Below, in pieces: positions 21,142-37,642 of a stretch of 64,000 bases of DNA. The translations under genes were made by a program, and so were the position numbers. Numbering within the stretch: position 1 is the stretch's first letter; every line of letters begins with the position of its first letter. The notes beneath the pieces were generated by a model, which had not been told where the DNA came from, ran no database searches, and saw only the letters and a list, made by a program, of their open reading frames with translations. The stretch spans positions 248,001-312,000 of the forward strand of contig NZ_JAGQEE010000003.1 in NCBI RefSeq assembly GCF_018304945.1, in the 5' to 3' direction. Source of the stretch: Collimonas humicola. GTDB taxonomy: Bacteria > Pseudomonadota > Gammaproteobacteria > Burkholderiales > Burkholderiaceae_D.

Positions 21142-21217
21142 ATGAAATATTATTTCATTGTTTTTATACGATGAAATAATTCATGAAATTATCAATCATA
21201 TAGATACATTATTTCAT
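21142..21217. promoter_or_regulatory. Candidate Lrp-family operators between lrp-like gene and glmS
   Basis: ATGAAATA-T-TATTTCAT at 21142-21158 is a perfect 17-bp inverted repeat. ATGAAATAATTCATGAAAT starts at 21171 and ATTATTTCAT lies at 21208-21217. The same half-site recurs at least four times in 76 bp within the divergent promoter region. This fits binding of the adjacent regulator, but that is inference. Confidence 0.55.
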
Positions 21218-21274
21218 AAGAGCTCGCCTAAGATACCCATATTCTTGAATTTCACCTTCAATGAGGAAAAGACC

Positions 21275-23092
21275 ATGTGCGGTATCGTCGCAGCAGTTGC
21301 TCAAATTAATGTCACCCCCATCCTGCTGGAAGGGCTGAAACGGCTCGAGTACCGCGGCTACGATTCCTGCGGCGTCGCCTTGCATATCGATGGCAAACTG
21401 CAGCGTTCGCGCAGCACATCGCGCGTGGCCGACCTCGAAAGCCAGATGGAAAAGGCCCAGTTGTCCGGCTTTACCGGCATCGCCCACACCCGCTGGGCCA
21501 CCCACGGCGCGCCGGCAACCCACAACGCCCATCCGCATTTTTCGCGCGACCGCATCGCCCTGGTCCACAACGGCATCATCGAAAACCACGACGAACTGCG
21601 CGCCGAACTGCAAGCGGCCGGTTACCAGTTTGAAAGCCAGACCGACACCGAAGTCATCGCCCACCTGGTCGACCACATGTACAGCGGCGACCTGTTCGCC
21701 ACCGTGCAGCAAGCAGTAAAGCGCCTGACCGGCGCCTATGCGATTGCCGTGTTCTGCGTCGATGAACCGCACCGTGTGGTCGCCGCGCGCCAGGGTTCGC
21801 CGCTGATCGTCGGCGTCGGCCAGGGCCAGAACTTCGTCGCCTCCGACGCCATGGCGCTGGCCGGCACCACCGACCAGATCATCTACCTGGAAGAAGGCGA
21901 CGTGGTCGACCTGCAACTGCAGCGCGTCTGGATCGTCGACGCCGCCGGCAAGGCGGTCGAGCGCGAAGTGAAAACCGTGCATGCCTACAGCAGCGCAGTC
22001 GAGCTCGGCCCCTACCAGCACTACATGCAAAAGGAAATTTTCGAACAGCCGCGGGCGATCGCCGACACCCTCGAAGGCGTCACCGGCATCATGCCGGAAC
22101 TGTTCGGCGACGGCGCCTTCAATGTCTTCAAGCAGATCGACTCGGTCCTGATCCTGGCCTGCGGCACCAGCTACTACGCCGGCCTGACAGCAAAATACTG
22201 GATCGAATCGGTCGCCAAGATCCCGGTCAACGTCGAGATCGCCAGCGAATACCGCTACCGCGACAGCGTGCCGAATCCGAACTCGCTGGTAGTGACCATC
22301 TCGCAAAGCGGTGAAACCGCCGACACCCTGGCCGCGCTCAAGCACGCGCGTTCACTCGGCATGCTGCACACGCTGACCATCTGCAACGTCGCCACCAGCG
22401 CCATGGTGCGCGAATGCGCGCTGGCCTACATCACCCGCGCCGGCGTCGAAGTCGGCGTCGCCTCGACCAAAGCCTTCACCACCCAGCTGGCCGCGCTGTT
22501 CCTGCTGACCCTGGCGCTGGCGCAAAGCAAGGGCCGCCTCAGCGACGAAGAAGAGGCCGCCCACCTGAAAGCCATGCGCCACCTGCCTGCCGCGCTGCAA
22601 AGCGTGCTGGCGCTGGAACCGCATATCGTGGCCTGGGCCGAAGCCTTCGCCCGCAAGGAAAACGCCCTGTTCCTGGGCCGCGGCATCCACTACCCGATTG
22701 CCCTGGAAGGCGCCTTGAAACTCAAGGAAATCACCTACATCCACGCCGAAGCCTACGCCGCCGGCGAACTCAAGCACGGCCCGCTGGCGCTGGTGACGGA
22801 GGAGATGCCGGTGGTGACCGTGGCGCCTAACGATGCGCTGATCGAAAAGCTGAAATCGAACATGCAGGAAGTACGCGCGCGCGGCGGCCAGCTCTATGTG
22901 TTCGCCGATGCCGATTCGCACATCAAGTCGAGCGAAGGCGTGCATGTGATCCGGCTGCCGGAGAACTATGGCTTGCTGTCACCGATTCTGCATGTGGTGC
23001 CGTTGCAGCTGCTGTCATATCACACGGCGCTGGCGCGCGGGACGGACGTGGATAAGCCGCGGAATTTGGCTAAGTCGGTGACTGTTGAATAG
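21275..23092 (+). CDS. glmS: Glutamine-fructose-6-phosphate aminotransferase (isomerizing)
   Basis: First step of hexosamine synthesis. The start at 21275 exposes the nucleophile as MCGIV, with Cys2 after Met removal. 605 residues. The N-terminal glutaminase has HTRWATHG. Two SIS sugar-isomerase domains follow, with [10 protein letters not shown] and SQSGETADT in the first. The C-terminus [13 protein letters not shown] is the conserved end encoded by the DNA that TnsD-type proteins recognise. AGGAAAAG precedes the ATG. A Tn7-like island begins 23 bp after the stop. Confidence 0.97.
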
Positions 23093-23115
23093 GCTATCTT
23101 CACTGACGTAATCTT

Positions 23116-23186
23116 TGATAATGACTAATAAAGTCTGTCACGCGACAATAAAGTCTGTCACGAGGGGCTACAAATCCGTGACAGAC
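23116..23186 (+). repeat. Left end: TnsB-like sites
   Basis: The core AATAAAGTCTGTCACG occurs at 23127-23142 and 23147-23162, two direct copies with a 20-bp period. A third, inverted CGTGACAGAC lies at 23177-23186. The outermost copy belongs to the 24-bp terminal inverted repeat that starts TGATAATG at 23116. Confidence 0.82.
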
Positions 23187-24001
23187 CAAAATGACTGAAA
23201 TTGTCCGTAAATTGGGAGGACAGATATTAGTGGAATGGATAACTGCGCAGGTATGCGTTGCGCACGAGCGGAAATTCCCTCCGCAATTAACTCCTCCGGC
23301 GCCCAATGTCCCCACTGTTTGAAGTGAAACGGCACATTGGCCTCATGGCATTGGTCCCTGAGACTTTCCGGCTAGGCTGGATTCATGGATCTGGAATCGG
23401 GTCCGCTTTCCCCGCCAGCAATGACCCAATTAATCCCTGCCACAGACGACCCCGGCGTTTGCAAATACGGCTGCAGATTCATATGCCCCAAAAGCGGTTC
23501 CGCTGACACAAAGCGTACCACCACATCGTGCTCTAGCAAATGGTCAATTCGCTTGTCGAGCCAAAGTTGATTTTCTGTGCTGGTGCCGAGCCAAATATTG
23601 TGCGGCCACTTGCCGCTCCACGGCACCAGCTTTCGAACGTGGCGGATCCGCTTTGTGAGGAGCAACCAATCCAGATTGGGCGTAGCCTCAATAAGCGCCC
23701 AAAGCCGCTCTCGCGCGTCGTTGAGGTCAGTGCGATCCTCAAATACGTCAGCCATAGAGGCGCAAAACACGCGTCGCCGCTCGCCGGCCAGCGCCGCCTC
23801 TTTGTCCCACTTTAACGGCTCGCGCCAATGGGCGTCCGTGAAGAAGCGCCTCGGTGCCTCTTTACCCCACAGGTCGTTCATGCCCACGCGTTTGGCCCAG
23901 GTTTCGGCATAACAGTGCTTGCATGCCGGCGATATGCGTACGCATCCCCACCACGGATTGAAAGTGTGATGAGTCCATTCGATTTTGCTGTTGGCGCCCA
24001 T
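23168..24001 (-). pseudogene. DUF5131 (phage Gp37/Gp68-like) gene with internal amber stop
   Basis: The frame starts at 24001 with MGANSKIEWTHHTFNPWWGC and has the family's Cys cluster (GCVRISPACKHCYAE, a radical-SAM-like pattern). It then runs through FCASMADVFEDR, LLTKRI and WVIAGGESGPDSR to MNPA, where TAG at 23372-23374 interrupts it. The same frame continues after the stop as PESLRDQCHEANVPF-HFKQWGHWAP, the expected C-terminus of the family, and ends at 23168 inside the left transposon end. The stop probably replaced a Trp codon. These proteins are often paired with three-Cys-motif partners in defence islands; no partner is here. The truncated 209-residue product is likely inactive. Confidence 0.85.
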
Positions 24002-24070
24002 TTTCTATTCCCCACGTTCACGAATGCTGTATAAGCACACAGTATATCGACTGTGGATTAGTTCGCAATT

Positions 24071-24295
24071 CTATTCATCGAGATTGACATCCTGCCTACC
24101 GATGGCCTGCATGCATTGCAGAAAAAAAACGAATGAAAAACTGCCACGGCTGAGTTTGTTGGCGATCCCAGCGTATGTCTCGATCACTCCAATTTCCTTC
24201 AACTTCGAAACGAGGTCGCCATACGACAAGCCAGAGCGGGTCAGCTCCGACCTGAGGATGTTTGCTGCCTTGTCGTTCCAATGATTAGGTTGCAC
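24071..24295 (-). CDS. DUF6471 small protein
   Basis: 74 residues if translation starts at the GTG at 24295 (VQPNHWNDKAANILR). The frame stays open to 24445, but the added part crosses a perfect palindrome and looks non-coding. NILRSELTRSGLSYGDLVSKLKEIGV-ETYAGIANKLSRG-FSFVFFLQCMQAIG matches the DUF6471 pattern, which looks like a helix-turn-helix (landmarks LSYGDLVSKL, IANKLSRGSF). Function unknown; often in accessory regions. Start uncertain. Confidence 0.7.
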   Translation of the reverse strand: MQPNHWNDKAANILRSELTRSGLSYGDLVSKLKEIGVIETYAGIANKLSRGSFSFVFFLQCMQAIGRQDVNLDE

Positions 24296-24323
24296 AGTGA
24301 TGCCGATTGCCCAAATATTGTAA

Positions 24324-24339
24324 TTATCATATATGATAA
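24324..24339. promoter_or_regulatory. Perfect 16-bp palindrome upstream of DUF6471 gene
   Basis: TTATCATATATGATAA reads the same on both strands. It lies 29 bp upstream of the likely DUF6471 start and about 185 bp before the first zinc-ribbon gene on the other strand, in an AT-rich divergent promoter region. A candidate operator, possibly for the HTH-like DUF6471 protein. Confidence 0.5.
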
Positions 24340-24524
24340 CAATGTATCGATCCAAGGTGGTGCGCATTTTATTCGATCCCTGTTTCGTGACCGCAAGCAC
24401 TGGCATGAAGGGCCTTGTGACCATATTGGAGCTTTCGGGCGGCAATGGCAGTCCGTCACCAGCTTGATTTCCAGGACCATTGAGTTCAAATCCGCTCTAT
24501 CACATATCACTACTAAATATTCAG

Positions 24525-25667
24525 ATGTTCTATTCGAGAAAACTCAACCGAGAAACTGGCCAGGTCGAAGTGTGGGAATGTGAGTGGTCCAATCCTGGTA
24601 CAGGAATGGCGAAGAAGGAATTCCTCCACAAGTTGGGCAATGAGGATGACCTGTCGCCTGAAGCTGGCCAAGAGAAGTACTCCGCGGCGTCTGCTATCTG
24701 CTGGGCTCCCGGCAGAACCATTGGAAACATTGCTGTTAGCTCGGAAGAGGTATTTGGACATTTCGAGGGAAAAGCCGGCGCCGATGCGCTCTTGCCCTGC
24801 CATATAGTTCCTTGCGGAAAATTTCGCAACGGTGCCAAGCGCTGGTATTGCAAAACCCACCAAATTCATTGGGGCACCAATGCTGATATTGCGGCACTCC
24901 CCGAAACTGGAGAAGTGCTTTGTAGCAATCACGCTATGCAAATGAGTTATGTCGTTGATCCTCTTCAGGTGGAGTTCAACGACTATGAGGAAATTGGGGT
25001 CTGGTGTTCTCTGCCGCCGGCCCTATCAAGCCGTCCCATCGTCAAGCGCCCGCCTAAGATACACGTGCATAAACGCTTTACCGGCAAGGAAAGAAAGGAG
25101 CTCGATCAAGACTATGATGCCATCGTGTGTTCCTATAATCAGGATGCCGGCTTATTCGCTAACACCGACATTACATTGATCCAGGTTACTCCACCTGCCG
25201 CTTTTGAATTTGTTCGATCCCTCGAATCTGGAGCCCACACTGATTGCGTCACGTGCAAAAAGTGCGGCTACCCGCACCTAGATTTAGGGAGTTTTGCTCG
25301 ACATCCTCATTCCAAACATTTCTGTGGAAATTGCGGAAACGATAGCGTCATCAGTTCAGGCAAGATCGTCTCAACCCCTCTTAAGCCGCTGCACGATCAG
25401 TTCAACAACAGTAATACGTATGTAACGCCTGACCGGGCTCTCAACCTTGACGAGTTTGAAGGTAAGCATTTCGAACTGTGGCCAACTACTCCAGCCGTTT
25501 TATGGACGGCCAACCGACCGCAAGAACAAGGGATACACGTTCATGTATTCGAAGGTGACGGCATTCGCCGAATCGTCGATGATACATTCGGAGAAGTTAT
25601 ATATCGAAGAAATAAGTTAAATCGTAAAATTCTTTGGCAAAACATGACGGACAACACGATCTATTGA
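24525..25667 (+). CDS. Unrecognised zinc-ribbon protein, paralogue A
   Basis: I do not recognise this family. From the ATG at 24525 it has 380 residues; an in-frame TTG at 24480 is less likely because its extension is not shared with the paralogue. Conserved between the two copies: ICWxxGRTxGNIAV, RWYCKTHQIHWG, a CxxH, then CKKCGYPHLDLGSFARHPH and HFCGNCGND (four Cys, a probable zinc ribbon), TPLKPLHD, and near the end GIHVHVFEG and IVDDTFGEVIY. The next gene, its paralogue, is convergent 56 bp away. No membrane segment or signal peptide. Conserved His and Asp near the C-terminus could be catalytic, but that is speculation. Confidence 0.75.
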   Translation: MFYSRKLNRETGQVEVWECEWSNPGTGMAKKEFLHKLGNEDDLSPEAGQEKYSAASAICWAPGRTIGNIAVSSEEVFGHFEGKAGADALLPCHIVPCGKFRNGAKRWYCKTHQIHWGTNADIAALPETGEVLCSNHAMQMSYVVDPLQVEFNDYEEIGVWCSLPPALSSRPIVKRPPKIHVHKRFTGKERKELDQDYDAIVCSYNQDAGLFANTDITLIQVTPPAAFEFVRSLESGAHTDCVTCKKCGYPHLDLGSFARHPHSKHFCGNCGNDSVISSGKIVSTPLKPLHDQFNNSNTYVTPDRALNLDEFEGKHFELWPTTPAVLWTANRPQEQGIHVHVFEGDGIRRIVDDTFGEVIYRRNKLNRKILWQNMTDNTIY

Positions 25668-25723
25668 TCGTCTCCTTCCAAAAGGCTACGCGCCAACCCA
25701 ATCTGGATCAGATAGAGTCGAAT

Positions 25724-26845
25724 TCAGTCCATTGTGTTGGCGATCATCTGAGCCAGAAGCAGCTGTCGGTTGAGCTCCTGTCCGTGATAAATCACCGTGC
25801 CAAACGTATCATCGATCATTCGCCTGCCATTAACACTCAGATGGACATGGATGCCCCTCTCTTGTGGGCGTTGAGCCGTCCATACTATTGCCGGAGTTGA
25901 GGCCCAAAGCGCAAAAGTCGCTCCGGGGTGTTCGTCAATGTTGAGCACCTTGGCGACGTCAACGTATTGCCACGCTGCGCTAAATGCATCGTGAAGCGGT
26001 TTCAGTGGTGTAGATGTCATCGGCACAGGCGTCCACGTGTGATCTCGCCCGCAATTCCCACACAGATGTTTGCGATGCGATCTACGAGCAAAGTCACCGA
26101 GGTCCAGATGAGGAAACCGGCAGTGGGTGCACTGCACACATCCCATAGGTGTTCCGTTTTCTAGGGATAGTACAAACTCTTTTGCAGCTGGTGGCGTCAC
26201 ATGCACAGTATCGATACCAGTGTTTGGGAACAATGCCATCGGGGGGGCAAATTGAAGTGCCAGAGCATCAAAGTCTTGATCAACGATCTTTGGTCCATTA
26301 GGGACGTCACGTAGGTGCACATGAATTTTGGGTCGCCGCTGAGGCGGCTCGCCATTGCTAGTGAATGCAGCAGGAAGAGAGCACCAGATACCTACTTCGG
26401 CATAGTCGTGCAGGTAAATACGCGGTGGATTAACCACATAGGACATAGGCGAACCGTGTTGCGCGCAACGCATAGCTCCATCACGATCAGATGCTGCCCT
26501 GTCTGCGACGCGCCCCCAGTGAGATTGGTGTGTACGGCACCACCAACGGTCAGTGCCATTCTGCCAGCGCCCGGCAGGTACTATTTCGCAGTTGAGAAGA
26601 GCATCGTCACCTTTAAGCCCGGGAAAGGCACCAATCACGTCGTGATTAAATACGGCGATGTTGCCCAAGGTTCTACCGTAGGACCAGCAAATTGCTTCCA
26701 TAGTGTTCATCGGGCCAACCATAACTGGTTGCTCAATAGTCAGGAATCGTCGATTGCGCTTCATTGGAGGATTACTGGTTAGATCCCAGTCATATCCCCA
26801 GAGTTGGATTGTTCCATCGTCAGCTTCTACTCGCTCGACTTCCAT
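25724..26845 (-). CDS. Unrecognised zinc-ribbon protein, paralogue B
   Basis: 373 residues starting MEVERVEADDGTIQLWGYDW. It aligns with paralogue A over nearly the full length, with perhaps half the positions identical by eye. It shares ICWSYGRTLGNIAVF, RWWCRTHQSHWG, CTHCRFPHLDLGDFARRSH, HLCGNCGRDH, VTPPAAKEFVLSLENG, TPLKPLHDAF, RPQERGIHVHL and MIDDTFGTVIY. The N-terminal region before ICW is the most divergent. A small Cys-rich gene lies 30 bp upstream on the same strand. Function unknown. Confidence 0.78.
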   Translation of the reverse strand: MEVERVEADDGTIQLWGYDWDLTSNPPMKRNRRFLTIEQPVMVGPMNTMEAICWSYGRTLGNIAVFNHDVIGAFPGLKGDDALLNCEIVPAGRWQNGTDRWWCRTHQSHWGRVADRAASDRDGAMRCAQHGSPMSYVVNPPRIYLHDYAEVGIWCSLPAAFTSNGEPPQRRPKIHVHLRDVPNGPKIVDQDFDALALQFAPPMALFPNTGIDTVHVTPPAAKEFVLSLENGTPMGCVQCTHCRFPHLDLGDFARRSHRKHLCGNCGRDHTWTPVPMTSTPLKPLHDAFSAAWQYVDVAKVLNIDEHPGATFALWASTPAIVWTAQRPQERGIHVHLSVNGRRMIDDTFGTVIYHGQELNRQLLLAQMIANTMD

Positions 26846-26875
26846 GCCTCCCCCCGACTCTTCATTATTATTTGT

Positions 26876-27079
26876 CTAGTTATCGTACTTGAAGCCGATA
26901 TTCTTCGCACGACATACAGAAATCGCGTTCAGCGGTAGCAGCGCTCCAATTTCTTCTGCCGTGAGTGTATTACGTTCCATGCCGCCGCAAATATTGTATG
27001 GAATTCGGGAGCCATGAGTTTCAACTTGCTTAGAGAAATGCTCTTCTTCGGCACAGTTACTGCAAAGTGCGCAAGACAT
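26876..27079 (-). CDS. Small Cys-rich hypothetical protein
   Basis: 67 residues beginning MSCALCSNCAEEEHF, with C-x2-C-x2-C at the start and two more Cys later (YNICGG, SVCRAK), suggesting metal binding. NTLTAEEIGALLPLNAIS is a plausible helix pair. It lies just upstream of paralogue B on the same strand with a 30-bp gap, so they may be co-expressed. No family recognised; its reality rests on context and composition. Confidence 0.5.
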   Translation of the reverse strand: MSCALCSNCAEEEHFSKQVETHGSRIPYNICGGMERNTLTAEEIGALLPLNAISVCRAKNIGFKYDN

Positions 27080-27153
27080 CGCTTCCCCGTCTTAGTCCGA
27101 CGTGGTTAAAATTTGGGGCAGTACATTTACAGGCCATTTTGGGCTGTCGCTTG

Positions 27154-27690
27154 TCATAGATCTAAGCATTCCTTCAGCGATGCAGAAGGCAGTGTCATGT
27201 CGCCCTTGGTCGGGTTAAAAATTCCTCTGACACTTAGTTCGCGAAGCAATTTTGTCTTCCGAGCATTCCATAGACCCGGATTCGATTGGAGTGCCCTAGC
27301 AATTAACCAATCTTCCAAGAAATCCACCGCTGGCATTTTGCCACCTTTCTGAACGGGCGATCTACCCCGTCCTTGTAGCGTAACCGCCGGCACAAAGTAT
27401 AGTGCGGGACGTCCTCGCTTATATTCATCCAATATTTCATTGTAAAGCTGTAAGTGGGATCCGTTTGTCGACTCCTTTAAGACGGATTGTCTCTCAGCCT
27501 TACCTACATACCAAGGCACCACCCGTGCGGAGCCGGAGGATTTGACACCGAACACGTAACATCCTGGCCCACTTAGCAGGCTTGCTCCGAAGGGATCCTC
27601 CAGCGCGGTGGCCTTAAGTTTTTTTATATGGTCAGCCTTTATGATGGTTCGTGTTGGGAAGTAATACGGACCAAGAACCTCAAATTTCAT
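27154..27690 (-). CDS. GIY-YIG-like protein
   Basis: 178 residues. PGCYVFGVK (about residues 42-50) and PWYVGKAER (59-67) match the two beta strands of a GIY-YIG nuclease with variant letters (CYV...YVG). FLEDWLIARALQ near 123 could provide the metal-binding Glu. This predicts an endonuclease-fold protein of the defence cargo, but the catalytic set is incomplete by eye and no known subfamily fits. Confidence 0.55.
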   Translation of the reverse strand: MKFEVLGPYYFPTRTIIKADHIKKLKATALEDPFGASLLSGPGCYVFGVKSSGSARVVPWYVGKAERQSVLKESTNGSHLQLYNEILDEYKRGRPALYFVPAVTLQGRGRSPVQKGGKMPAVDFLEDWLIARALQSNPGLWNARKTKLLRELSVRGIFNPTKGDMTLPSASLKECLDL

Positions 27691-28024
27691 GTTATCTCCC
27701 TCAATCTTATTATTATGGCGACGTTCGGCGGAATTATGTCATCGCTCGGCAGTGCTGCAAAATTCAGCTCCAGAAAGTCTGCAGTAGACTGTTGGGATGC
27801 GTTTTAATGTGCTGGTAGTGGCCAATTTTCAATCCCTTGATCCGACTCGACTCTTTCAATTCAGCACTGAGCATGACTTTTGGCGACACGAAGAAAGTAA
27901 TTTAGATCTTGGCGAGGCCAGTGTCAGGGGGTGGGCTATCAGCCCGATCTTATTGTTGGTCGAAATGAAAGACAATTCCATCTGAAAGCCTTCGCGCACG
28001 GCAACTTCTTGCAGATGGTGCCAT
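27691..28024. other. 334-bp stretch without a confident gene
   Basis: Lies between the Shedu gene's 3' end and the start of the GIY-YIG-like gene, both on the minus strand. It must contain the promoter of the latter. A 62-codon plus-strand frame at 27797 is unlike any protein I know and lacks a convincing ribosome binding site. Confidence 0.5.
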
Positions 28025-29185
28025 TTATGCATTGTGATTGACAATATAGCTCGCTCGTTCATAGAGTTCGTCGAATGTAATGATTTCGGGCCAGGCGGTG
28101 TTGCGACGATACAGTTCGAACGAGCGATATTGCTCGGCGTTCACCCCATGCTCCCCCATAAACTCGCCCAGGCTGCCAATTACCAAAAATGAGCGGGGCT
28201 GGAAGTTGAGCGCCTCCTCGCCCGTCGGAGCCCCGTTTTCATCCTTGCCGATGAATTTATTGCCAATTTGCTCGACAGCTCCCTGCACGGTCCCTTGTAC
28301 CTGCGCCACTGCTCCCACGAGCTCCGACGACGGAGCCCAGCACCCTGCCCGATACGGTTTGTTCGACAGCAGTTTGGTGGTATGGATTTTGATCTCCACA
28401 AAGCAGAGACTCGAAATCAAGCCGCGCGTCTTCATCAACGCATCCGCCCGTTTCCCGTGCGAGGTTACCGAGTGTCCTTGGACGACGTTTTCCAATTTTT
28501 TGTCATCGAGCGAGGACAGGAAAAGATAGCCGAGCCCGTAGCCGAAAAACCAGGTGTTCTTTTCAAAGAATTTCTGCCACAAAGCTTCGCCAGTACGTTC
28601 CTTTATTTCTTCAGCATGGGCGAAGTATTCAGGTTCATTCAACAGGCGTGCATACGCCGCCAGCTGCTCTCGGCGATAGGCTATGGCGACAATGTCTTCC
28701 TTAGTGATTTTCGTGCGAAGCACCTCAGCAAGAATGTCCGGATTGTCAGTGAGCAGCTTGGCGGCTTGGCGTTCCGAGAGGATGAATTTCCGAAGCTCCT
28801 CGTCTGTTATGTTGACCTCATGATCATGATGAAAAACGTATTCCTGAATGTGCTTGGCAAACTCCAGGAATTTGGCGATCTCATCGCCGATCAAAGCGAA
28901 ATTTGATTTGTGTGGCACCCCGGAGGCTTCTGTATAAGCCTGGAGATTCAGCACACTGACAGAGCGCGAATCCTCAAAGAACGTCGCCTTGACTATGCGC
29001 TTTCCTCCCTCCTTTTGCCGCAGCACGAGTTCGTCCTTGACTGTCGCAAAAATCAATTCATTCGACGCATTGAAGGCCTTCGTCGCGATTCTGACCTTTC
29101 GTTCCTTGTCGAAAAATCCCGGCAAACTCTTGCTCATGTAGGTCTTATCAGGGCGTTTGTTGAAATCGTAATCTGAGTCTTCCAT
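28025..29185 (-). CDS. sduA: Shedu anti-phage nuclease (DUF4263)
   Basis: Single-gene phage defence protein. The ATG at 29185 (MEDSDYDFNKRP) is preceded by AGGAAAATCG and gives 386 residues; a longer frame to 29239 lacks such a site. The C-terminal DUF4263 nuclease domain starts around residue 195 (EALWQKFFEKNTWFFGYGLGY, landmark KNTWFFGYG). Its PD-(D/E)xK active site is Asp248 in GKRADALM and Glu264 and Lys266 in FVEIK. QVQGTVQGAVEQI follows, as in the family. The N-terminal half would sense the invader. Divergent from the jet operon across 420 bp. Confidence 0.88.
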   Translation of the reverse strand: MEDSDYDFNKRPDKTYMSKSLPGFFDKERKVRIATKAFNASNELIFATVKDELVLRQKEGGKRIVKATFFEDSRSVSVLNLQAYTEASGVPHKSNFALIGDEIAKFLEFAKHIQEYVFHHDHEVNITDEELRKFILSERQAAKLLTDNPDILAEVLRTKITKEDIVAIAYRREQLAAYARLLNEPEYFAHAEEIKERTGEALWQKFFEKNTWFFGYGLGYLFLSSLDDKKLENVVQGHSVTSHGKRADALMKTRGLISSLCFVEIKIHTTKLLSNKPYRAGCWAPSSELVGAVAQVQGTVQGAVEQIGNKFIGKDENGAPTGEEALNFQPRSFLVIGSLGEFMGEHGVNAEQYRSFELYRRNTAWPEIITFDELYERASYIVNHNA

Positions 29186-29605
29186 CGATTTTCCTGTATG
29201 TCGATGCGTTTCCACCGCCTTGGGCCGCATTGTCAGCACATTTGTAATAAAAAGCGGCAGGCGGGCGTCTTATCCAGAGCCGTGCTTCAATCAACGTATT
29301 TGTACCATGAGCAGCAAACACGCAGACATCGCTCCAGCAACTTCGACGCTTTTCTCGATAAAGCCTTCGACCACGTTCAAGCAGCGTATACACCTATGCG
29401 GTAGTTCTGCCTTTCTTCGTTATGGTTGCCATGCCGTGATTGTGCCATCGCAAAATTAGATTAGTTGCCTTTATGTACTAGTTGCTTTTATGTATATACT
29501 CTCAATATACATAGGAGGCCTAATGTCATTGTGCCGGTCGAAACGTGCGAATCCCACCTCCAGCGGTTATTGCGTACTGGGTGTGCATTGCCTTGGGGTT
29601 CGTTT
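29186..29605. promoter_or_regulatory. Divergent promoter region between Shedu and jetA
   Basis: 420 bp serving two oppositely directed defence units. The jet-proximal part is AT-rich and carries the direct repeats and leader ORF described separately. I see no conserved protein in the remaining frames. Confidence 0.5.
29462..29494 (+). repeat. Tandem 16-bp direct repeat upstream of jetA
   Basis: TAGTTGCCTTTATGTA (29462-29477) and TAGTTGCTTTTATGTA (29479-29494) differ at one base and have a 17-bp period. They lie just upstream of a TATACT hexamer and AGGAGG and are a candidate operator pair controlling the Wadjet-like operon. Confidence 0.55.
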
Positions 29606-29609
29606 ATGA
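29523..29609 (+). CDS. Candidate 28-residue leader ORF coupled to jetA
   Basis: ATG at 29523 follows AGGAGG (29513-29518) at short spacing, the strongest ribosome binding site in this interval. It reads MSLCRSKRANPTSSGYCVLG... and its stop TGA overlaps the jetA ATG (ATGA). The peptide resembles nothing known. Alternatively this site serves an upstream GTG (29531) in the jetA frame. Confidence 0.35.
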   Translation: MSLCRSKRANPTSSGYCVLGVHCLGVRL

Positions 29610-31084
29610 GCGACGAAGCCTTTGGTTCCCCTCTGTCCGTTTCCCTTACGAAATCAGCCAATTCGCCCCTCCTGGATCTGTCCAGACAACAACGTAACCT
29701 CCTACTGTTGCGGCCCGTGTTCCAGCTCGAGCGTGACAAAATGCGACTCGGGGACGAAGGGAGTACTGAGCACACTCTCTTCCAAGGAGTAGATACTCAT
29801 TATCTGGCACTTTCGGCGCTGGACCTGATGATGGAAGCGACTACCATTTCCAGTGGAAGCACGTCGACTGAGGTGCTCATGCAGTTAGCTGAGGTGGCCA
29901 TGCAGATGAAGCCGTCGCTGTCCGCTTCCCAAAGCCGGCGTGTCGCGGAGGTAGTACTCGATGCATTAGACAACAAAGCCAACAATCACCGCGAGTTCAG
30001 TTTCGACTACTTTGATGCACCGACTTGCAGCACCAAGAGCGTCCGCTTTCGCTTGGTGAGATTCGAACCAGACTCGGAAGACGTGTACCGATACCGGCCC
30101 ACGGCAGAAGGCTACCTCGTATATCTCGGCATGCTAGACCTGTCGCCAGAGGATTCCCAAGAGCTGATGGAGAAGATGCTGGACCTCCTGGTTCAGCGCG
30201 GCCGCTTCGAGGCGGCTCTGGAAATCGCCCGACGAGCCCGCAAGCTCTCCATCGAATATCGTCAGCTCATCCGGGACAGGCTCTATCAGGCCTATCGCGC
30301 TCCTGGGAGCGTCAACTGGAGCCGAGACATGTCAGGCCGCCTCGACGCGGCGAGGGTGCACGTACGCCAGCGTCAAGCGGAGGACACGCGGATGGAGGAG
30401 GCTGTCGGCGAAGCGCTGATCGAAGCTGACGAGGTACGCACCCGCCAGAGCCTCATTCAACTAAGGGAAACGCTGCAGAGCGCCAGCCTGCTTCGTTTGC
30501 AACTCGTCACTGACATTACCGAGTCAAACGAGCGATTTATCGCAGCCCAGCGAGCAGTTTTCCGCGCTCGGAAACCTACAGGACTGCCAGACCTCGAGCC
30601 GCAGCTCCTGCCACAGTTAGTGAATCTACTCATCCAGACCCTGGCCACCGAAGGCGACACCTTCGTCAGCGCACTGTATCCCCCGGTGTGGCCGAAGGTA
30701 TATGACCTCAACTCAGTGTTTACAGTGCTCCTAGAGCAGCGCGCAGAAGATGCTGTGCCGGAAGAGGACGATGGCGAATTGACGGAGTTCGTACCAATGA
30801 CGGACCAGTTCCCCAAGGAGCTTGTTCAACAAGCCAACGAATGGCTCGGATCGAAGTTCGCGATGGGAGTGCCCCTACGGGTTGACCAAATTCTGGAAGC
30901 CGCCGAAGACGCGGGATTGAATCGCCCGCTGCGTCGATGTCTATTGCTCATTCTGTTCCGTAGCTTTGCACAGTCGGAAAACGAATTCAAGGATGTACTT
31001 GCTCAACTGACCGGTACAGAGTTCATGCTGGACATCGCACAAGGGGATAACTTGGAATTCGTCCAACAGGGAGAAAAACAATGA
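29606..31084 (+). CDS. jetA: JetA-like (MukF/kleisin-like) subunit of a Wadjet-type system
   Basis: 492 residues from the ATG at 29606 (MSDEAFGSPLSV). Largely helical: an N-terminal part with LLDLSRQQRNLLLLRPVF, a middle helical region around LMEKMLDLLVQRGRFEAALEIARRARKL, and an acidic stretch (VPEEDDGELTEF) before a C-terminal winged-helix-like end. In Wadjet/MksBEFG systems the first gene encodes the kleisin that bridges the SMC heads. It does not look like the type I JetA (DUF3375), so the role comes from gene order and size. Its stop overlaps jetB by four bases. Confidence 0.68.
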   Translation: MSDEAFGSPLSVSLTKSANSPLLDLSRQQRNLLLLRPVFQLERDKMRLGDEGSTEHTLFQGVDTHYLALSALDLMMEATTISSGSTSTEVLMQLAEVAMQMKPSLSASQSRRVAEVVLDALDNKANNHREFSFDYFDAPTCSTKSVRFRLVRFEPDSEDVYRYRPTAEGYLVYLGMLDLSPEDSQELMEKMLDLLVQRGRFEAALEIARRARKLSIEYRQLIRDRLYQAYRAPGSVNWSRDMSGRLDAARVHVRQRQAEDTRMEEAVGEALIEADEVRTRQSLIQLRETLQSASLLRLQLVTDITESNERFIAAQRAVFRARKPTGLPDLEPQLLPQLVNLLIQTLATEGDTFVSALYPPVWPKVYDLNSVFTVLLEQRAEDAVPEEDDGELTEFVPMTDQFPKELVQQANEWLGSKFAMGVPLRVDQILEAAEDAGLNRPLRRCLLLILFRSFAQSENEFKDVLAQLTGTEFMLDIAQGDNLEFVQQGEKQ

Positions 31085-31815
31085 ACACGCCTGAACCAAC
31101 AGTTCGCAATGCCGCGCGCCTGACGTACAAGGCGCTCCACACTTCGCTATCTCCCATCAACGATAGCGAGTACCGGGAACTGCTGGCCCTGTATCGTGCG
31201 GACCCAATGTTCTACCGGCACGTCCAAGACGTCGCGCTAGGCATGGAACTCAATATTCTGGACGCGAGTGAGCAACGTGGCCTCATCGTTGTTCCTGCGT
31301 CGCGCGAAAGCAAGTTTGCCGTTCGGTTGACCGACATTCGTAGCGGTATGAACCTGGACCAGAAGGCCTCTCTGGTTTTGGCACACGTGGCAGTCGCGGC
31401 GGTCTTCTTCCCGACCACCGATGGCCTGGACGACGACAACTACTCCCCGCCCCCAGCCTCGGTTGGGACGTGCCGCGACACTCTCTATGCCCTGTCGCGG
31501 CGACTCAAAGAGACCTCCGACTTGCCCTCGGACATCCCGCCGGAGCTGACGCCGGGCTGGGAGGCCATCTCGGCGATGCCGGTCGCCATTCCCGCCGGTC
31601 AGCGCGCTTCGGTGGCGTCAGTGGTCGGCGTGGTCAAGCTGGCCTTGAACCAGATGGCCCAAAACGGGTTAGTCAGGCTGGACCGGGAGGCCGATGAAGA
31701 TACCGCGGTCACCTACACGGCGACGCACCGACTTCGCGTGCAGCTGCGCGAACTTGCGCTGCGACGACTCTACGAGATGGCGCAGCTGGCTGTGACGCTG
31801 CGTAAGGTGGGCTGA
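31081..31815 (+). CDS. jetB: JetB-like (MukE/MksE-like) subunit
   Basis: 244 residues, overlapping jetA by ATGA. Winged-helix-like composition, with RLTYKALHTSLSPINDSEYRELL at the N-terminus and a helical C-terminus (LRVQLRELALRRLYEMAQL). Position between the kleisin and the SMC gene, and size, are those of JetB or MksE, which binds the kleisin. Direct sequence similarity to a named JetB subtype is not evident to me. Confidence 0.65.
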   Translation: MNTPEPTVRNAARLTYKALHTSLSPINDSEYRELLALYRADPMFYRHVQDVALGMELNILDASEQRGLIVVPASRESKFAVRLTDIRSGMNLDQKASLVLAHVAVAAVFFPTTDGLDDDNYSPPPASVGTCRDTLYALSRRLKETSDLPSDIPPELTPGWEAISAMPVAIPAGQRASVASVVGVVKLALNQMAQNGLVRLDREADEDTAVTYTATHRLRVQLRELALRRLYEMAQLAVTLRKVG

Positions 31816-31816
31816 C

Positions 31817-34800
31817 ATGCAGAAGATTTCACGCATCCATTTGGCCAACTGCGGCTTCCGAACAGCATGGTACGAGGCGGTTACCTTCAATCTCACTGAA
31901 CCTGGCACGGGCCTTCCGACCGATACCATCATCAATCTCGAAAACGGCGGCGGCAAGACAACGCTGATTGGCCTGGTATTCTCGTGCTTCGAAACATCGC
32001 AGGAGCGGTTTCTCAAGCACATTCAGAGCAAGCACAGCAGCTTCTCCCAATATTTTACCCACGACGGTGTACCTGGGTTCATCGTCATCGAATGGCTGAT
32101 GCCCGCTCGGTCCGTAGGTGGGCATCCGTACAAGCTGGTTACAGGCCAGGTCGTCTCCGTGCGAAACACGACGGAGACGGAGGTCGACCGAATGTTCTTC
32201 AGCTTCGAGGAGCGTGCCGACCTTCGATTGGAAGATATCCCAGCGCCTGGACTGTCAGGCGCATCGGCCACCTCGATGAACGAATTTTCTCGCTGGATTC
32301 ATGACAACCAGAAGAAGCACTCCGGCAACGTCTTCATAAGTCACAACCGCCAGGCCGAATGGCAGCGGCACCTGAAGGATGAGCGACTCATTGACCTCGA
32401 CATGCTGCGCATGCAGGTCAATTTCTCGGCTCAGGAGGGTGGCTTCGACACCGGCTTCCTTGATTTCAAGACCGAGAGCGAGTTCCTGCGTAAATTCCTT
32501 TTCCTGACCAGTGACACTGGCAAGGCTGAAGAAGCCCGAAGGTCCGTGGTGTCCGTCTGTGAACTCCACCGCCGCAAACCGCAGTTGCAGCGGCGCCGCG
32601 ACCATCTCAAGAAGTTCCGCATCTCGTTGACTACATTCGCCGATGCTGCCCGCCATTACATGGAGGCAGTGAGCACACAGCGGACCATGCTTATTCATGG
32701 TGCTCAGCTTGTTCAATCACTACAGGCTCGTGCCGTCAACCATCGAAAGACGCAAGCGGTGGAGGCGACCTTCGAGAAGGAGCAGCGCAACCAGGCTAGC
32801 GTTGCCGCTAAGAACGCGGCGCTGTTCGCAATCGAGTGGATAACTGGAACCTGGGTCTGGCACCAGAAGCGCGTCGCCCAGACGAAGAAACTTAAAGACG
32901 ATACCGACACGTTAGTATTAGGCCTGGAGACGCGGTCGAAGCTGCTGAAGGCGGCGCGACTGCAGCAAGAAATCCTGAGCATGGACGAGCGCATCAAGGA
33001 ACTTGATGCGCTCGCTGAAGCCGAAAGGGCTGAGCTGAAACCGGCCCGGGACCATGTGGAAATCCAGGGTGCTCTGCTCCGGCGAGCACTGTTCATCGAG
33101 GAAAGTCGCCTGAAGGATGCGCTGGCCACGCTGGATGATAGATCGAAGCAGCGCGAGCAACGTAAAACGGCGCTTCGCAGCCAGAAAGTGAAGGCGGATG
33201 CCGACGAACTTCGCCTGACGCGCGAGCAAACTGGATTGCAGACGACAGAGAATCTGCGAAATGCTCGACGTCTGGTGCTGGAGCGGGATGGGGTGTTCGT
33301 CAACACCGATGAATCAGCAGATGGGGCTATCGTGCGACACGAAGCTGCGTCCAGATCCCACCACCACGAACGAGATCTTCATCTAGCGACAAGGGATGCT
33401 GCTCGTACTCAGGCAAGGCAACATCGGATCGACGCGAACGAAGAGCGCGTCAAAGGAGCCAGCATAGGTCAACAGGCCAAAGGGCTGCAGACCTACATTG
33501 CGAAAGGGGAAGCGGAGCTGGAGCGGCTTGGTCAGCTTCCTGCCCTTTTGGGAGCTGTTGAGACCGACCGTGTTGATCCTCAGTCGCCAGCCCTGCTGCC
33601 GCGCCTTCAGGATGTCATCGCTGACTCCAACTGGCAGAAGTCGTTGTCCGACGTGCGACTGGCCGAATTACGTGCTACGCGTCAGGCCATTGAAGACACC
33701 GGCGTCGCCGGCTACAGCCACGATGTCGCACTCGTTGTGCAGGGGCTTCACGCTGTCGGCGTACGCTCGGCAATACCCTTTAACGAATACATTGCCCGCG
33801 CGGTCGATGACGCCACTAAGGCGCAAGCGCTCATACTGAGCGACCCGGCGCGGTACTCCGGTGTATGCGTCGCGCAGGCTGAATTCGCCAAGGTCGCTGA
33901 GATGTCGTGGATTGCCCGCAAACCGAGTCGCCCTGTAATGGTCTCCGTCGCGGCACTCGATACGGCTACGGTACCCGAGGACCGTCTGGTCGTCCCGCCG
34001 GAAGATGCATCAGCATTCAATATTGTGGCTGCAACCCGCTTAGCCGAGAGTTTGGATAGTCGGCTGCAAGAAGAAGATCAGCGGCGCGCCGCCTACGAGC
34101 TGCGATATACGCAGGCGATCAAGGCGGTTCAAGAACTCGAAACCTTCACAGGCGCCTACGGCAATGGGCAACTGGCCGAAGCTGCGGTGAAACAGGCAAC
34201 GCTAGAGGGAGATGCCTCCGCTGCACGGAGCCGCGCAGCAAATCTCGAGGCTGAAGCTGCATCTCTCGATACTCAGGCTGAACAACATGACAAGACCGCG
34301 GCAGAGGCAGAATCGCGGCGCTCAGAGTCTGTTCAAGCGACGCAGGCGGCCCGCCAGTTCCAGACTGAACACGAATCCGGCCGTGAGGGGTGTCTGGCGC
34401 GCCTCGCTGAAATAAGCCTTGAGTTAACGGAGACGCAAGAGCGCAAGGTCGAGATCGACTCCGCGTCAGAAAAGCTTCAAGAGGTACATGATGCCGACCA
34501 AACACAACGGGCCGACGCTAACGCGGAGCTGCGCCAGGTTGGTGAAGAGCGCGGGCGCATCGCTTACTACAACAGGGAGTACCCGGCGCAAGAGCGGCTC
34601 CAGCAACATCCGCGTCCCTTGACGACGCTGCGCCAGCTCTACGAGGACGCCCAGGCGAATTACCTGACGGAAGAAAAGGCCCGTCTGGGCTCCTTAAGTG
34701 AGCGTATTCAAGGCGTGAAGGAACAGCGACTCGGCAAGACCAAGGAGTTCACACGCGACTTCAGTGGGGTGAACATGGCTGACCTAAAGCCTTATCTTTC

Positions 34801-36214
34801 CCTGAACCATGAAGCGGAACTGTCTAAAACGGAGTGGCAGCTTGTCGAAGCTCGCAAGGAACAGGTGGAGGCATCCGGGAAGCATCAATCCCTCAGTACC
34901 GAATCCCGCACGTGGCATGCCTCGAACAAGCAAAGCATCGGCACGGCCACCTCTGAGTTCGAGCGATATACTGCTGAAGAGCTTGGCCTACTTCTCGAGG
35001 ACTTGAAACAAAAGATTGACAAGGAAAACGACCGCATGCGTGTCGCTACCGAGGAGGCCAATCGTGCATCCAGTCGTGCCCAGGAAAAACTTCGTGAGGC
35101 CGAGTCAGACGAACAGAATGAATCCATCCTTCGTAGCGGAATGGGGCTTCCAGACCAGCCCGACCCGGCTCTCATCGCGGCCGAGATTGGCGCATTGATG
35201 GGAGAGACTCCCGAGGTCCCGGATCCGACATCTGTGCTCCTGGAGCTCAACTCAGGCAAGCAGGTGAGTGCGCTGCTCGCCGAGTATAACGGTAAGAATG
35301 CTGGAGTTTCCAAGCTGCAGACGGGTGCGCGTACTTCGTTCGATGAGCTTAAGAGTGCTGCAGGCGACCCTACTTTCCGGGAGGTAGACCCCGATGTCGC
35401 GTTGCAAATGCTGCAGAACGACTTCACGGCAGCGTGCACAGACGCGTCGCGGTTGCTTGAGCATCTCGATGACCGCATCTCCACAACCGAGTCAACGCTG
35501 ACGGGTATGCAGGCTGACTTTGATACCTGCGTGGAAGAGGTTCTGGGCGTGGTGCGGGGAGCCATTAACACGTTGAACAAGGCTTGCAGTCAAGAAAAAT
35601 GCATTCCGGTAACCGCTCCATACGTTGGTGGCAAGCAAGTATTGAAGATGCGAGCAAACTTTGCCGCGGTTACGCTGGACATGCGCCGCGCGGCTATGCG
35701 TAACTACCTCGACGTGCTGGCGGACACTCTCGCAATCCCTGCCAAGGGCACGGACCTCATTGCGGACGCTGTTGCTCGTATCTATGGCAAGCCGCTCGGA
35801 CTGCACGTGCTGAAGATGTCGATAGAAGAGTCCGAGCAGTACGTTCCCGTTGAGAAGATTTCCAACTCCGGTGGCGAAGGCGTAGTGATGGCCATGTTCC
35901 TCTATCTGGTCATCAATCAGTTGCGTGCTGAGAACCACGCCCAGGTGCAGAGGAACGCAGGCGGACCGCTCATCCTTGACAACCCGTTCGCCAAAGCCAC
36001 GACCGCCGCGCTGTGGCGCGCGCAGAGGTTGCTGGCCTCTGCTATGAACGTACAACTCATCTTCGCGACTGCACTTCAGGATTTCAACTCCATCGGGGAG
36101 TTCCAGCGTTTCATTCGTCTGCGCAAGGCCGGTCAGAATACGAAAACCAAGCGATGGCACCTCGAGGTGGCCAATCTGCAATTAAACGAAGCCGCCGATG
36201 AGGCAGCTGCGTGA
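31817..36214 (+). CDS. jetC: JetC-like SMC ATPase
   Basis: 1,465 residues, the motor of the system. The N-terminal head has Walker A ENGGGKTTLIG (Lys47), close to the start as in MukB/JetC. Long coiled coil from about 230 to 1,150, rich in Glu, Ala, Arg and Gln, with a hinge-like globular part near 580-680. The C-terminal head has the ABC signature SNSGGEGVV (residues 1349-1357) and Walker B PLILDNPFA (from about 1384). Starts two bases after jetB and overlaps jetD. Known Wadjet systems extrude DNA loops and cut small circular plasmids. Confidence 0.88.
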   Translation: MQKISRIHLANCGFRTAWYEAVTFNLTEPGTGLPTDTIINLENGGGKTTLIGLVFSCFETSQERFLKHIQSKHSSFSQYFTHDGVPGFIVIEWLMPARSVGGHPYKLVTGQVVSVRNTTETEVDRMFFSFEERADLRLEDIPAPGLSGASATSMNEFSRWIHDNQKKHSGNVFISHNRQAEWQRHLKDERLIDLDMLRMQVNFSAQEGGFDTGFLDFKTESEFLRKFLFLTSDTGKAEEARRSVVSVCELHRRKPQLQRRRDHLKKFRISLTTFADAARHYMEAVSTQRTMLIHGAQLVQSLQARAVNHRKTQAVEATFEKEQRNQASVAAKNAALFAIEWITGTWVWHQKRVAQTKKLKDDTDTLVLGLETRSKLLKAARLQQEILSMDERIKELDALAEAERAELKPARDHVEIQGALLRRALFIEESRLKDALATLDDRSKQREQRKTALRSQKVKADADELRLTREQTGLQTTENLRNARRLVLERDGVFVNTDESADGAIVRHEAASRSHHHERDLHLATRDAARTQARQHRIDANEERVKGASIGQQAKGLQTYIAKGEAELERLGQLPALLGAVETDRVDPQSPALLPRLQDVIADSNWQKSLSDVRLAELRATRQAIEDTGVAGYSHDVALVVQGLHAVGVRSAIPFNEYIARAVDDATKAQALILSDPARYSGVCVAQAEFAKVAEMSWIARKPSRPVMVSVAALDTATVPEDRLVVPPEDASAFNIVAATRLAESLDSRLQEEDQRRAAYELRYTQAIKAVQELETFTGAYGNGQLAEAAVKQATLEGDASAARSRAANLEAEAASLDTQAEQHDKTAAEAESRRSESVQATQAARQFQTEHESGREGCLARLAEISLELTETQERKVEIDSASEKLQEVHDADQTQRADANAELRQVGEERGRIAYYNREYPAQERLQQHPRPLTTLRQLYEDAQANYLTEEKARLGSLSERIQGVKEQRLGKTKEFTRDFSGVNMADLKPYLSLNHEAELSKTEWQLVEARKEQVEASGKHQSLSTESRTWHASNKQSIGTATSEFERYTAEELGLLLEDLKQKIDKENDRMRVATEEANRASSRAQEKLREAESDEQNESILRSGMGLPDQPDPALIAAEIGALMGETPEVPDPTSVLLELNSGKQVSALLAEYNGKNAGVSKLQTGARTSFDELKSAAGDPTFREVDPDVALQMLQNDFTAACTDASRLLEHLDDRISTTESTLTGMQADFDTCVEEVLGVVRGAINTLNKACSQEKCIPVTAPYVGGKQVLKMRANFAAVTLDMRRAAMRNYLDVLADTLAIPAKGTDLIADAVARIYGKPLGLHVLKMSIEESEQYVPVEKISNSGGEGVVMAMFLYLVINQLRAENHAQVQRNAGGPLILDNPFAKATTAALWRAQRLLASAMNVQLIFATALQDFNSIGEFQRFIRLRKAGQNTKTKRWHLEVANLQLNEAADEAAA

Positions 36215-37209
36215 AGGAGTTTCTCGAAATGCTGCGGCGAGGAACGCGTAAGCGAGTAATGCTGACGGAGCTTCGCCAGCACTTCTTCTCCTTATACCCA
36301 GACGTCCAGAACAGCCCTGACCGGGGCGCCCTCCTACTGGAAGCCCTGCGTCAGCTAGAGGCTGCAGGCGCGCTGTCGCTCCCGGCGGCGGCAAGCTGGG
36401 AGAAGATCGGCGTTCCTCCACTTCCGCAATGGGTGCTATTGACGCGCGAACCCAAGGCAGTTTCGAGCAGAGATCTTCGCGGCGTCACCTGGGCACCTGA
36501 ACTCGGGTTCTGGCCAGACTTGCGGCCGGGTCAACTTGAGGCAATGCTACCCATCAACGAGTTTCTGCTCCGCCGCCGCGGTAGTCTCATGGTCGTTCCC
36601 ATCAAGGAGCGATCGCTCGAAATCTACGGTGACGAGAAACGGCTCGATGGCATGTGCACTGGTGACAGCCTGTTCGGCGGGCGTCTGCAGTTGAGCACTC
36701 TCGGATGCTTCCGAGTGCCGCAGCCTCTTCCCTACCGAATGGCTGACGCTCCCGGCAAGCCTGTGCTCGTGGTCGAGAATCACAACAGCTTCTGGAGCTT
36801 CGGCGAATGGAACCAGCAAGCCAGATGCTATTCGGCCATCGTGTACGGTTCCGGCGAGGCATTTCGGCTAACCGGTCGTGCACTCCAGCAGGTGCTGTAT
36901 CAAGTGGCTGGCAGTGGCGCTGAGTACCTGGGAGATCTCGATCCGAAGGGGGTTCGTATTCCCGACGAGTTCAACCGTTCGGCAGAAGCCGGCTCGCCGC
37001 AAGTTCGTCCAGCGCTGATCTTTTATCAGTGGCTTTTGACACACGGCGTGCGACGTCACCGGCCCGAATGCGCTTCCTTCGAGTCTGACAGCGTGGCTGA
37101 ATGGTTCGGCGCGGAATTGGCTGCACAGGTAGTCGAACTCTGGCAGAGCGAACATTGGATCCCCCAGGAGTCATTAGGCTTCGAACAACTGTCGGTGGGA
37201 GTGCTGTGA
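36211..37209 (+). CDS. jetD: JetD-like Toprim nuclease subunit (DUF2220)
   Basis: 332 residues starting at GTG, overlapping the jetC stop (GTGA). The C-terminal Toprim-like domain has VLVVENHNSFWSF (Glu189), AIVYGSGEAF and YLGDLDPKGVRI (Asp242 and Asp244), the metal-binding acidic residues of the Wadjet nuclease. The N-terminal half is a winged-helix region (RGTRKRVMLTELRQHFF). It is the last gene before the right transposon end, 12 bp before the first CGTGACAGAC. Probably cleaves DNA that the SMC part has extruded. Confidence 0.85.
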   Translation: MKEFLEMLRRGTRKRVMLTELRQHFFSLYPDVQNSPDRGALLLEALRQLEAAGALSLPAAASWEKIGVPPLPQWVLLTREPKAVSSRDLRGVTWAPELGFWPDLRPGQLEAMLPINEFLLRRRGSLMVVPIKERSLEIYGDEKRLDGMCTGDSLFGGRLQLSTLGCFRVPQPLPYRMADAPGKPVLVVENHNSFWSFGEWNQQARCYSAIVYGSGEAFRLTGRALQQVLYQVAGSGAEYLGDLDPKGVRIPDEFNRSAEAGSPQVRPALIFYQWLLTHGVRRHRPECASFESDSVAEWFGAELAAQVVELWQSEHWIPQESLGFEQLSVGVL

Positions 37210-37220
37210 TCTTTTCAACG

Positions 37221-37369
37221 CGTGACAGACTATATTCTCTAACCGCAATCCAAAGTGCTTCTTTAAGAGGGGTGTGACAGACGTTAGAGAGATATACTCA
37301 GAGGAAATATCTTAACAAATATAAGCCTTTTCAGCCACCGACCGCGACAGACTTTATTAGTCATTATCA
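37221..37369 (-). repeat. Right end: TnsB-like sites
   Basis: CGTGACAGAC at 37221-37230, TGTGACAGAC at 37273-37282 and CGCGACAGACTTTATTAGTC at 37343-37362. The last belongs to the 24-bp terminal inverted repeat that ends CATTATCA at 37369. Orientation is opposite to that of the left end, as expected for transposon termini. Confidence 0.82.
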
Positions 37370-37434
37370 TCTTCGAGCTGCTCTGGTAGCAGGATGCTCT
37401 GCGTGCGATCCATTCCCTGAACAAAGCGTTTCAT
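37370..37434 (-). pseudogene. IS1182-like transposase, N-terminal remnant
   Basis: From the ATG at 37434 the minus strand reads MKRFVQGMDRTQSILLPEQLED, close to the conserved start of IS1182-family transposases (MKRFxxGxxRTQxxLLPExL). After about 21 codons the frame runs into the right end of the Tn7-like element and stops at 37357. Only the beginning of the gene survives; no further IS sequence is recognised on either flank. Confidence 0.72.
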
Positions 37435-37642
37435 CGAAACCTCGGTCAAATATGCAATATCGATTTGACGCTTGCATCGAAAAGTAGCTGACTAGCTCGC
37501 TGTGTTTGCACACAGTCTCGACCGATAGCAGATTTCTTCTTCCCGTTAGCTTGAGAGCCAATCACTCAGTCTTTACTGCGTTGGGGGCTCTTTTTACTGC
37601 AAAACAAATGATGAAGTAAAATGGCTTTTTCTTAGAAAAACA
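37435..37642. other. Non-coding stretch upstream of the IS remnant and metR
   Basis: AT-rich interval holding the upstream side of the IS remnant and the metR promoter. A 64-codon minus-strand frame overlaps it in another register and looks accidental. The MetR box at its end is listed separately. Confidence 0.45.

Follow-up and report, generated by a model that had tools for sequence, protein, structure and literature searches.

A cargo-only Tn7-like element behind glmS

The 14,254-bp island that follows glmS in the Collimonas genome studied here (G000; 5.6 Mb in 24 contigs) is best explained, with a probability that we put at roughly three in four, as a satellite of a Tn7-like lineage whose insertion was carried out in trans by a helper (TnsABC+TniQ) that the genome no longer contains. 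The window, that is, the whole 64,000-nucleotide stretch that was analysed, corresponds to positions 248001-312000 of contig C18. Within it, the cargo-only Tn7-like element occupies positions 23116-37369, as delimited by its inverted repeat, a target duplication and uninterrupted copies of the target. The attachment-site gene, glmS, lies immediately upstream on the plus strand (21275-23092, with the MCGIVAAV start at 21275 within the ORF 21158-23092) and was matched in all 15 Collimonas genomes. Its stop codon (23090-23092) is separated from the first base of the element by a 23-bp spacer. An earlier note on this DNA had correctly placed the left end 23 bp past the stop; the start that it gave, 23093, takes in the spacer and had to be moved to 23116.

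The element is bounded by a terminal inverted repeat of 27 nt with one mismatch (23116-23142 and 37343-37369), of which the outer 24 nt are identical. These 24 nt are also the longest exact match between the two 400-bp end regions, while 2000 single-base shuffles produced at most 14 nt, so that the perfect 24-bp repeat described in the note stands far above chance. The internal core copies that it had reported at both ends were also recovered. The core AATAAAGTCTGTCACG is present exactly at 23127 and again 20 bp further on, at 23147, and with one mismatch each at 37221 and 37343 (minus strand); four matches with up to 3 mismatches were thus observed against 0.38 expected, and none of 100 shuffles reached four. 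Weaker copies were seen at 23177 (reversed) and 37276. The glmS-proximal end (23116-23246, plus strand) is tight, with sites at offsets 12 and 32 and the reversed partial site near 23177; the distal end (37220-37369, minus strand) is spaced, and counted from the terminus its sites have offsets of 12, 82 and 134. Such asymmetric ends with repeated, predicted TnsB-type sites are those of a Tn7-like lineage.

Defence cargo and absence of tns genes

The cargo includes two defence systems, as the earlier note had claimed and as PADLOC detects. The Shedu protein is encoded by sduA (28025-29239, minus strand; PADLOC SduA E=9e-161), whose product contains the DUF4263 domain (PF14082, E=6.6e-30). It is followed on the plus strand by a type III Wadjet operon composed of jetA (29465-31084; JetA3, E=1.6e-236), jetB (31081-31815), jetC (31817-36214; JetC3, E=0, 1883 bits) and jetD (36211-37209; JetD3, E=2.2e-103; PF09983, E=1.6e-6). 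Three of these matches are strong; the JetB3 match is weak (E=2.9e-5), and the gene is in the right operon position. We take the jetC product to be an SMC-like ATPase and the jetD product to be a nuclease subunit. From these genes, the Wadjet system is predicted to restrict plasmids. No match to the island was found among plasmids by megablast.

The glmS-proximal part of the cargo starts with a DUF5131 gene on the minus strand (23372-24001; PF07505, E=2.9e-62; phrog_2045), presumably phage Gp37/Gp68-like. A three-frame reading showed that it is ended early by a single in-frame TAG, beyond which the same frame is open. It is followed by a gene for a 124-aa DUF6471 protein (24071-24445, minus strand; PF20075, E=3e-25) and by two convergent genes encoding proteins of 395 aa (24480-25667, plus strand) and 373 aa (25724-26845, minus strand). 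Pairwise comparison identified these proteins as paralogues (46.7% identical) with conserved Cys/His residues; in Pfam, NCBIfam and PADLOC they had no family match at E<=0.001, and in PHROGs none that was convincing. A single homologue of the 373-aa protein (31% identical) was found in 72,556 plasmid records, on an Azospirillum plasmid where it lies near an ImmA/IrrE gene. A 178-aa ORF (27154-27690, minus strand) looks GIY-YIG-like on inspection by eye only and matched no family in the Pfam, NCBIfam, PADLOC or PHROGs scans. The remaining cargo consists of small ORFs.

No transposase was found among the cargo. Nineteen Tns, TniQ and XRE queries detected neither a tns gene nor a remnant in the island (tblastn, E<=0.01), in agreement with the claim that the element is all cargo and carries no TnsABCD(E). 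It therefore lacks the tnsABC and tniQ genes of an autonomous Tn7-like transposon.

Relatives with ends of the same family

We searched 392 Oxalobacteraceae genomes for ends like those of the island. A 23-mer allowing up to 3 mismatches matched in 11 genomes, eight of them belonging to Collimonas (of 15). A wider end pattern with up to 1 mismatch matched in 22, against 1 match of the backward-pattern control; some of the single matches may be due to chance. Four viral contigs with the end pattern were set aside by eye as chance matches inside phage-like coding genes. The tight-end module aligns over 113-132 bp with G005, G006, G007 and G008, and only in part with G010, where the tight end (C1:289524) is without one of the two 20-bp repeats; beyond this similar module, the cargo of the Collimonas elements diverges. 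Relatives of the spaced end were found in G003 and G014.

Eight complete elements, with both ends found, were assembled: one each in G000, G008, G190, G279, G151 and G120, and two in G361. G120 lies outside the 22 end-pattern genomes and came from a TnsB search. Six of the eight, including the island, are tns-free by the same 19 queries at E<=0.01, and among the seven found via their ends alone tns genes are present in one (G151). This tns-free majority had not been foreseen in the earlier note. The tns-free elements are located behind glmS, between exbB-like and xseA genes, and at the ammonium transporter gene amt, and one of them is only 880 bp long. Inspected by eye, their cargo is defence in G000, porin, transport and metabolic in G008, transport and metal in G190, metabolic in G279 and the second G361 element, and an IS remnant in the first G361 element. 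In G008, the complete tns-free element (C1:4039168-4055302) is followed 4 bp on by the end of a second element, from 4055307, whose far end was not found; the pair sits between MotA/ExbB-family and xseA genes, and this genome gave no TniQ match at E<=0.001.

The two tns-bearing elements both belong to genera other than Collimonas. In G151 (793460-825985), the tight end encloses five genes, which encode TniQ (PF06527, 1.3e-17), an XRE protein, a TnsA-like protein, TnsB and, where TnsC would be expected, an AAA+ protein; the far end has sites at 12, 82 and 134, the layout of the island's spaced end. The TnsB matches the solved Tn7 TnsB (7pik) at E=2e-9, while TnsA and TnsC are named by position and weak matches (E=7e-4 for TnsA; AAA_22 below its cut-off), and no solved relative of TnsA was found. 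Full-length TnsB detected homologues in 7 of the 392 genomes. The one nearest to G151, in G120, is 64% identical and is accompanied by AATAAAGTCTGTC ends and by homologues of all five G151 genes. The other five loci (33-38% identical) showed no AATAAAGTCTGTC array in the stretches fetched (for G205 and G235, 5.4 kb and 20 kb were read). Ends of this family thus enclose TnsB and TniQ in G151 and G120, not in the island itself. Because relatives with such ends carry TniQ, TnsB and TnsA/TnsC-like genes, the island ends are, as judged from sequence, Tn7-like. The G151 element is inserted 177 bp upstream of groES and the G120 element at the 3' end of amt. In G120, G190, G279 and G361, the amt 3' end is used as an insertion site of the lineage, 0-4 bp past the stop, and PF00909 was detected in all four cases.

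The main competitor to movement in trans is decay: a complete Tn7-like transposon of this lineage would have entered the glmS site and been stripped of its tns genes by later deletion, while selection kept the ends and the defence cargo. The existence of full tns-bearing relatives fits such a history, and the premature stop in the DUF5131 gene indicates that some decay took place. We nevertheless regard it as unlikely, at something like one third of the weight of the satellite reading, since not a tns fragment was detected at E<=0.01, both ends are intact to the last base, and six of eight complete elements are tns-free at several sites, so that movement in trans requires fewer assumptions than a series of clean losses.

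Insertion at attTn7 in Collimonas

Insertion of these elements at attTn7 is specific for position and orientation in four genomes, one of them by inference: the distance after the glmS stop is 23 bp in G000, 25 bp in G005, 25 bp in G007 and 24 bp in G006, this last value being inferred because the end has been displaced by a later insertion. The tight end points towards glmS in all five cases (G000, G005, G007, G006 and G010).

In all 15 Collimonas genomes, Tn7-like repeat ends of at least five families (by eye) were seen past the glmS stop; the first clear end lies within about 60 bp in 14 of them and beyond 100 bp in G011. Several ends are stacked as stubs, 100-300 bp apart. In G005, 87 kb of mostly metabolic cargo (by eye) with several stacked ends separate glmS from a LysR gene (C1:386.7k-473.3k), and this region gave no tns match at E<=1e-4. 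G006 carries at glmS a Tn7-like element of about 48 kb (C1:~2740095-2788090; termini by eye) whose tns operon occupies the tip away from glmS; a 9.1-kb part of this element is 98.7% identical in G002 (C29).

The DNA into which the island was inserted could be reconstructed. The target ...ACTGACGTAATCTTCGAGC... is uninterrupted elsewhere in Collimonas, and in G000 it is split with TCTT doubled (23112-23115 and 37370-37373). The left piece (23095-23115) is the 5' end of a transposase gene, which we take to be IS1182-like, and has uninterrupted copies in G005, G002 and G014; the right piece (37370-37527, minus strand) is also repeated elsewhere in Collimonas. In six of the seven repeat loci read, the target is uninterrupted, three times exactly as TATCTTCACTGACGTAATCTTCGAGCTGCTCTGG (once in G005, twice in G014) and three times as a one-base variant (twice in G002, once in G005); at the seventh, in G007, the left part of TATCTTCACTGACGTAATCTTCGAGCTGCTCTGG is absent. 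In G000, the first half of TATCTTCACTGACGTAATCTTCGAGCTGCTCTGG lies directly behind glmS and the second half to the right of the island. Both boundaries are therefore exact, and the search for empty sites that the earlier note had suggested fixes them at 23116 and 37369. By its sequence, the DNA at the insertion point appears to have been an IS fragment, yet its 23 bp to the glmS stop is the attTn7 distance.

This arrangement also bears on the idea that cargo was swapped by recombination between old attTn7 end modules, the unit itself never having transposed. Such exchange could account for the tight-end module of about 140 bp that G000, G005, G007 and G010 have in common ahead of differing cargo, and the stacks of end remnants at Collimonas attTn7 would offer substrates for it. 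We consider it very improbable as an origin of the island, whose left and right flanks together make up a single repeat, divided at a 4-bp duplication, as expected when a whole unit transposes and not when cargo is exchanged between old ends.

A 4-bp target duplication

The target duplication of the island seems, from the flanking sequences, to be 4 bp and not the 5 bp of Tn7, which had not been anticipated. At the same boundaries, identical 4-bp flanks were found in seven of the eight complete elements and identical 5-bp flanks in none. When register shifts of up to 2 bases per end were allowed, the unshifted 4-bp reading still fitted seven elements and the best 5-bp register three. With equal base odds assumed, the chance of at least seven identical 4-bp flanks in eight is about 1e-16. 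The G120 element is flanked by TCAC on both sides; the GGGG match of G151 falls within a run of G and counts for little; the exception is the second element of G361, without a duplication. Two loosely paired candidates, in G028 (13855/24153) and G043 (18849/23005), also have no duplication; they were not counted among the eight, as it is uncertain that their ends form pairs. The accessible text of a review gives a 5-bp duplication as characteristic of Tn7 and all its relatives; judged by their flanks, the elements of the island's lineage appear to depart from this rule.

The ends might instead be those of another transposon class that makes 4-bp duplications, such as IS21 (istAB), in which case the position behind glmS would be a hotspot effect; an IstA-like ORF (by eye) is present inside the 880-bp G361 element. 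However, this ORF is preceded by different repeats, GAAAATTGACCCAC, and similar ORFs occur in 127 of the 392 genomes, so that it looks like a nested, separate IS; in addition, two genomes have tns genes inside island-type ends, the sites agree with Tn7 in sequence and offset, and the Pfam, PADLOC and NCBIfam scans found neither istA nor istB in the island. An IS21 origin of the ends is thus extremely improbable and was dropped.

Search for a helper and proposed mechanism

The satellite reading calls for a source of transposase. The host does contain a tns set, as the earlier note had proposed to look for, on contig C24 (L007:4193-13024), with TnsA-, TnsB- and TnsC-like proteins and two TniQ proteins. 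It does not match the island. At its one visible end (the contig stops before the other) it has the repeats AATAAAAACTTGAATG, which differ from the island ends, and blastp of its TnsB gave no match to the G151 TnsB at E<=10 and E=7.5 with that of G120. On these two grounds the set was rejected as helper, and the island is at present probably immobile unless a helper enters. A matching TnsB was found in none of the 15 Collimonas genomes, one per species, with the full-length protein as query (E<=1e-20); a search with its N-terminal 258 aa was also empty, and the full-length protein was used instead of this weak query.

Two other candidates were discarded. The tns unit beside the tight end in G006 lies outside that end; its termini are its own, and its duplication, AATGT, is 5 bp long (by eye). 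A second tight end borders directly on the tns-bearing element of G120, an arrangement that could have represented a helper and a satellite side by side, and no second far end was found within 30 kb. That the island is a mobilisable satellite is what we infer; no helper for its ends was detected in G000 or in the 14 other Collimonas genomes.

According to the mechanism that we propose, two end modules of about 130-150 bp each would frame exchangeable cargo, here Wadjet III and Shedu, and a TnsABC transposase with a TniQ/TnsD-type selector would be supplied in trans. The selector would read the 3' end of glmS and direct insertion to a point about 23 bp further downstream, irrespective of the DNA present there, while TnsB would bind the AATAAAGTCTGTC sites, cut at the TGA...TCA ends and join them with a 4-bp stagger. 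Proteins of the G120/G151 type, together with a TnsD-like selector, would be those acting on the island. Several observations weigh against this explanation: the 15 Collimonas genomes hold no matching TnsB, the 4-bp duplication is unusual for Tn7, and the G120 and G151 elements lie at other genes, so that no glmS-reading TniQ of the lineage was seen.

More tentatively, and with the chances close to even, these elements could form a distinct Oxalobacteraceae Tn7-like lineage that makes 4-bp duplications and exists mainly as cargo-only satellites. Ends of about 130-150 bp would suffice for its movement, defence and metabolic cargo would be freely exchanged, and rare TnsABC+TniQ helpers would provide transposition and direct it to safe sites, for example behind glmS or amt. 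If, as we suppose, surveys of Tn7-like cargo take tns genes as their starting point, they would overlook cargo-only elements and arrive at too low a proportion of defence and metabolic genes mobilised by Tn7-like ends. Such short natural ends, which surround 14-16 kb without a linked transposase, may also interest developers of insertion tools.

Comparison with known systems

Alignment of the ends to those of a known Tn7-like element supported the relationship. An end on plasmid R721, TGTGGGCGGAC-AATAAAGTCT, which we take to be Tn7's right end, and the island end, TGATAATGACT-AATAAAGTCT, share the same decamer at the same offset of 12; on R721 an annotated TnsA gene begins 134 bp inward of that end. 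Tn7 itself has one tight and one spaced end, as does the island. The likeness thus concerns the AATAAAGTCT site at offset 12 and insertion about 20-25 bp past the glmS stop whatever the local sequence. In contrast to Tn7, the island is without tns genes, its termini are TGA...TCA and not TGT, the duplication is 4 bp instead of 5 bp, and other bases follow the decamer. For Tn7, the available text of Mitra et al. (PMC2918618) describes insertion about 20 bp past the glmS stop without a requirement for the local sequence.

Defence cargo is known in Tn7-like transposons, Wadjet included, with 34 JetD in the accessible portion of Benler et al. 2021 (PMC8649781). The elements in that portion are discussed with their tns genes, whereas the island has none. 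The Collimonas Tn7-like sets (C24 of G000 and those at attTn7 in G006 and G002) resemble the lineage by TniQ, and the G006/G002 kind is also found at glmS; they differ by a TnsB weakly or not related to that of the lineage, by other end repeats and, in G006, by the 5-bp AATGT duplication (by eye). In the titles and abstract openings searched, which cover few subscription journals, neither natural Tn7-like elements devoid of tns genes nor 4-bp Tn7-like duplications were described.

The closest parallels in organisation are mobile insertion cassettes and laboratory mini-Tn7, in which transposon ends also surround cargo without a transposase. Mobile insertion cassettes are IS-derived and mini-Tn7 is man-made, whereas the island is natural, Tn7-like and loaded with a large defence cargo.
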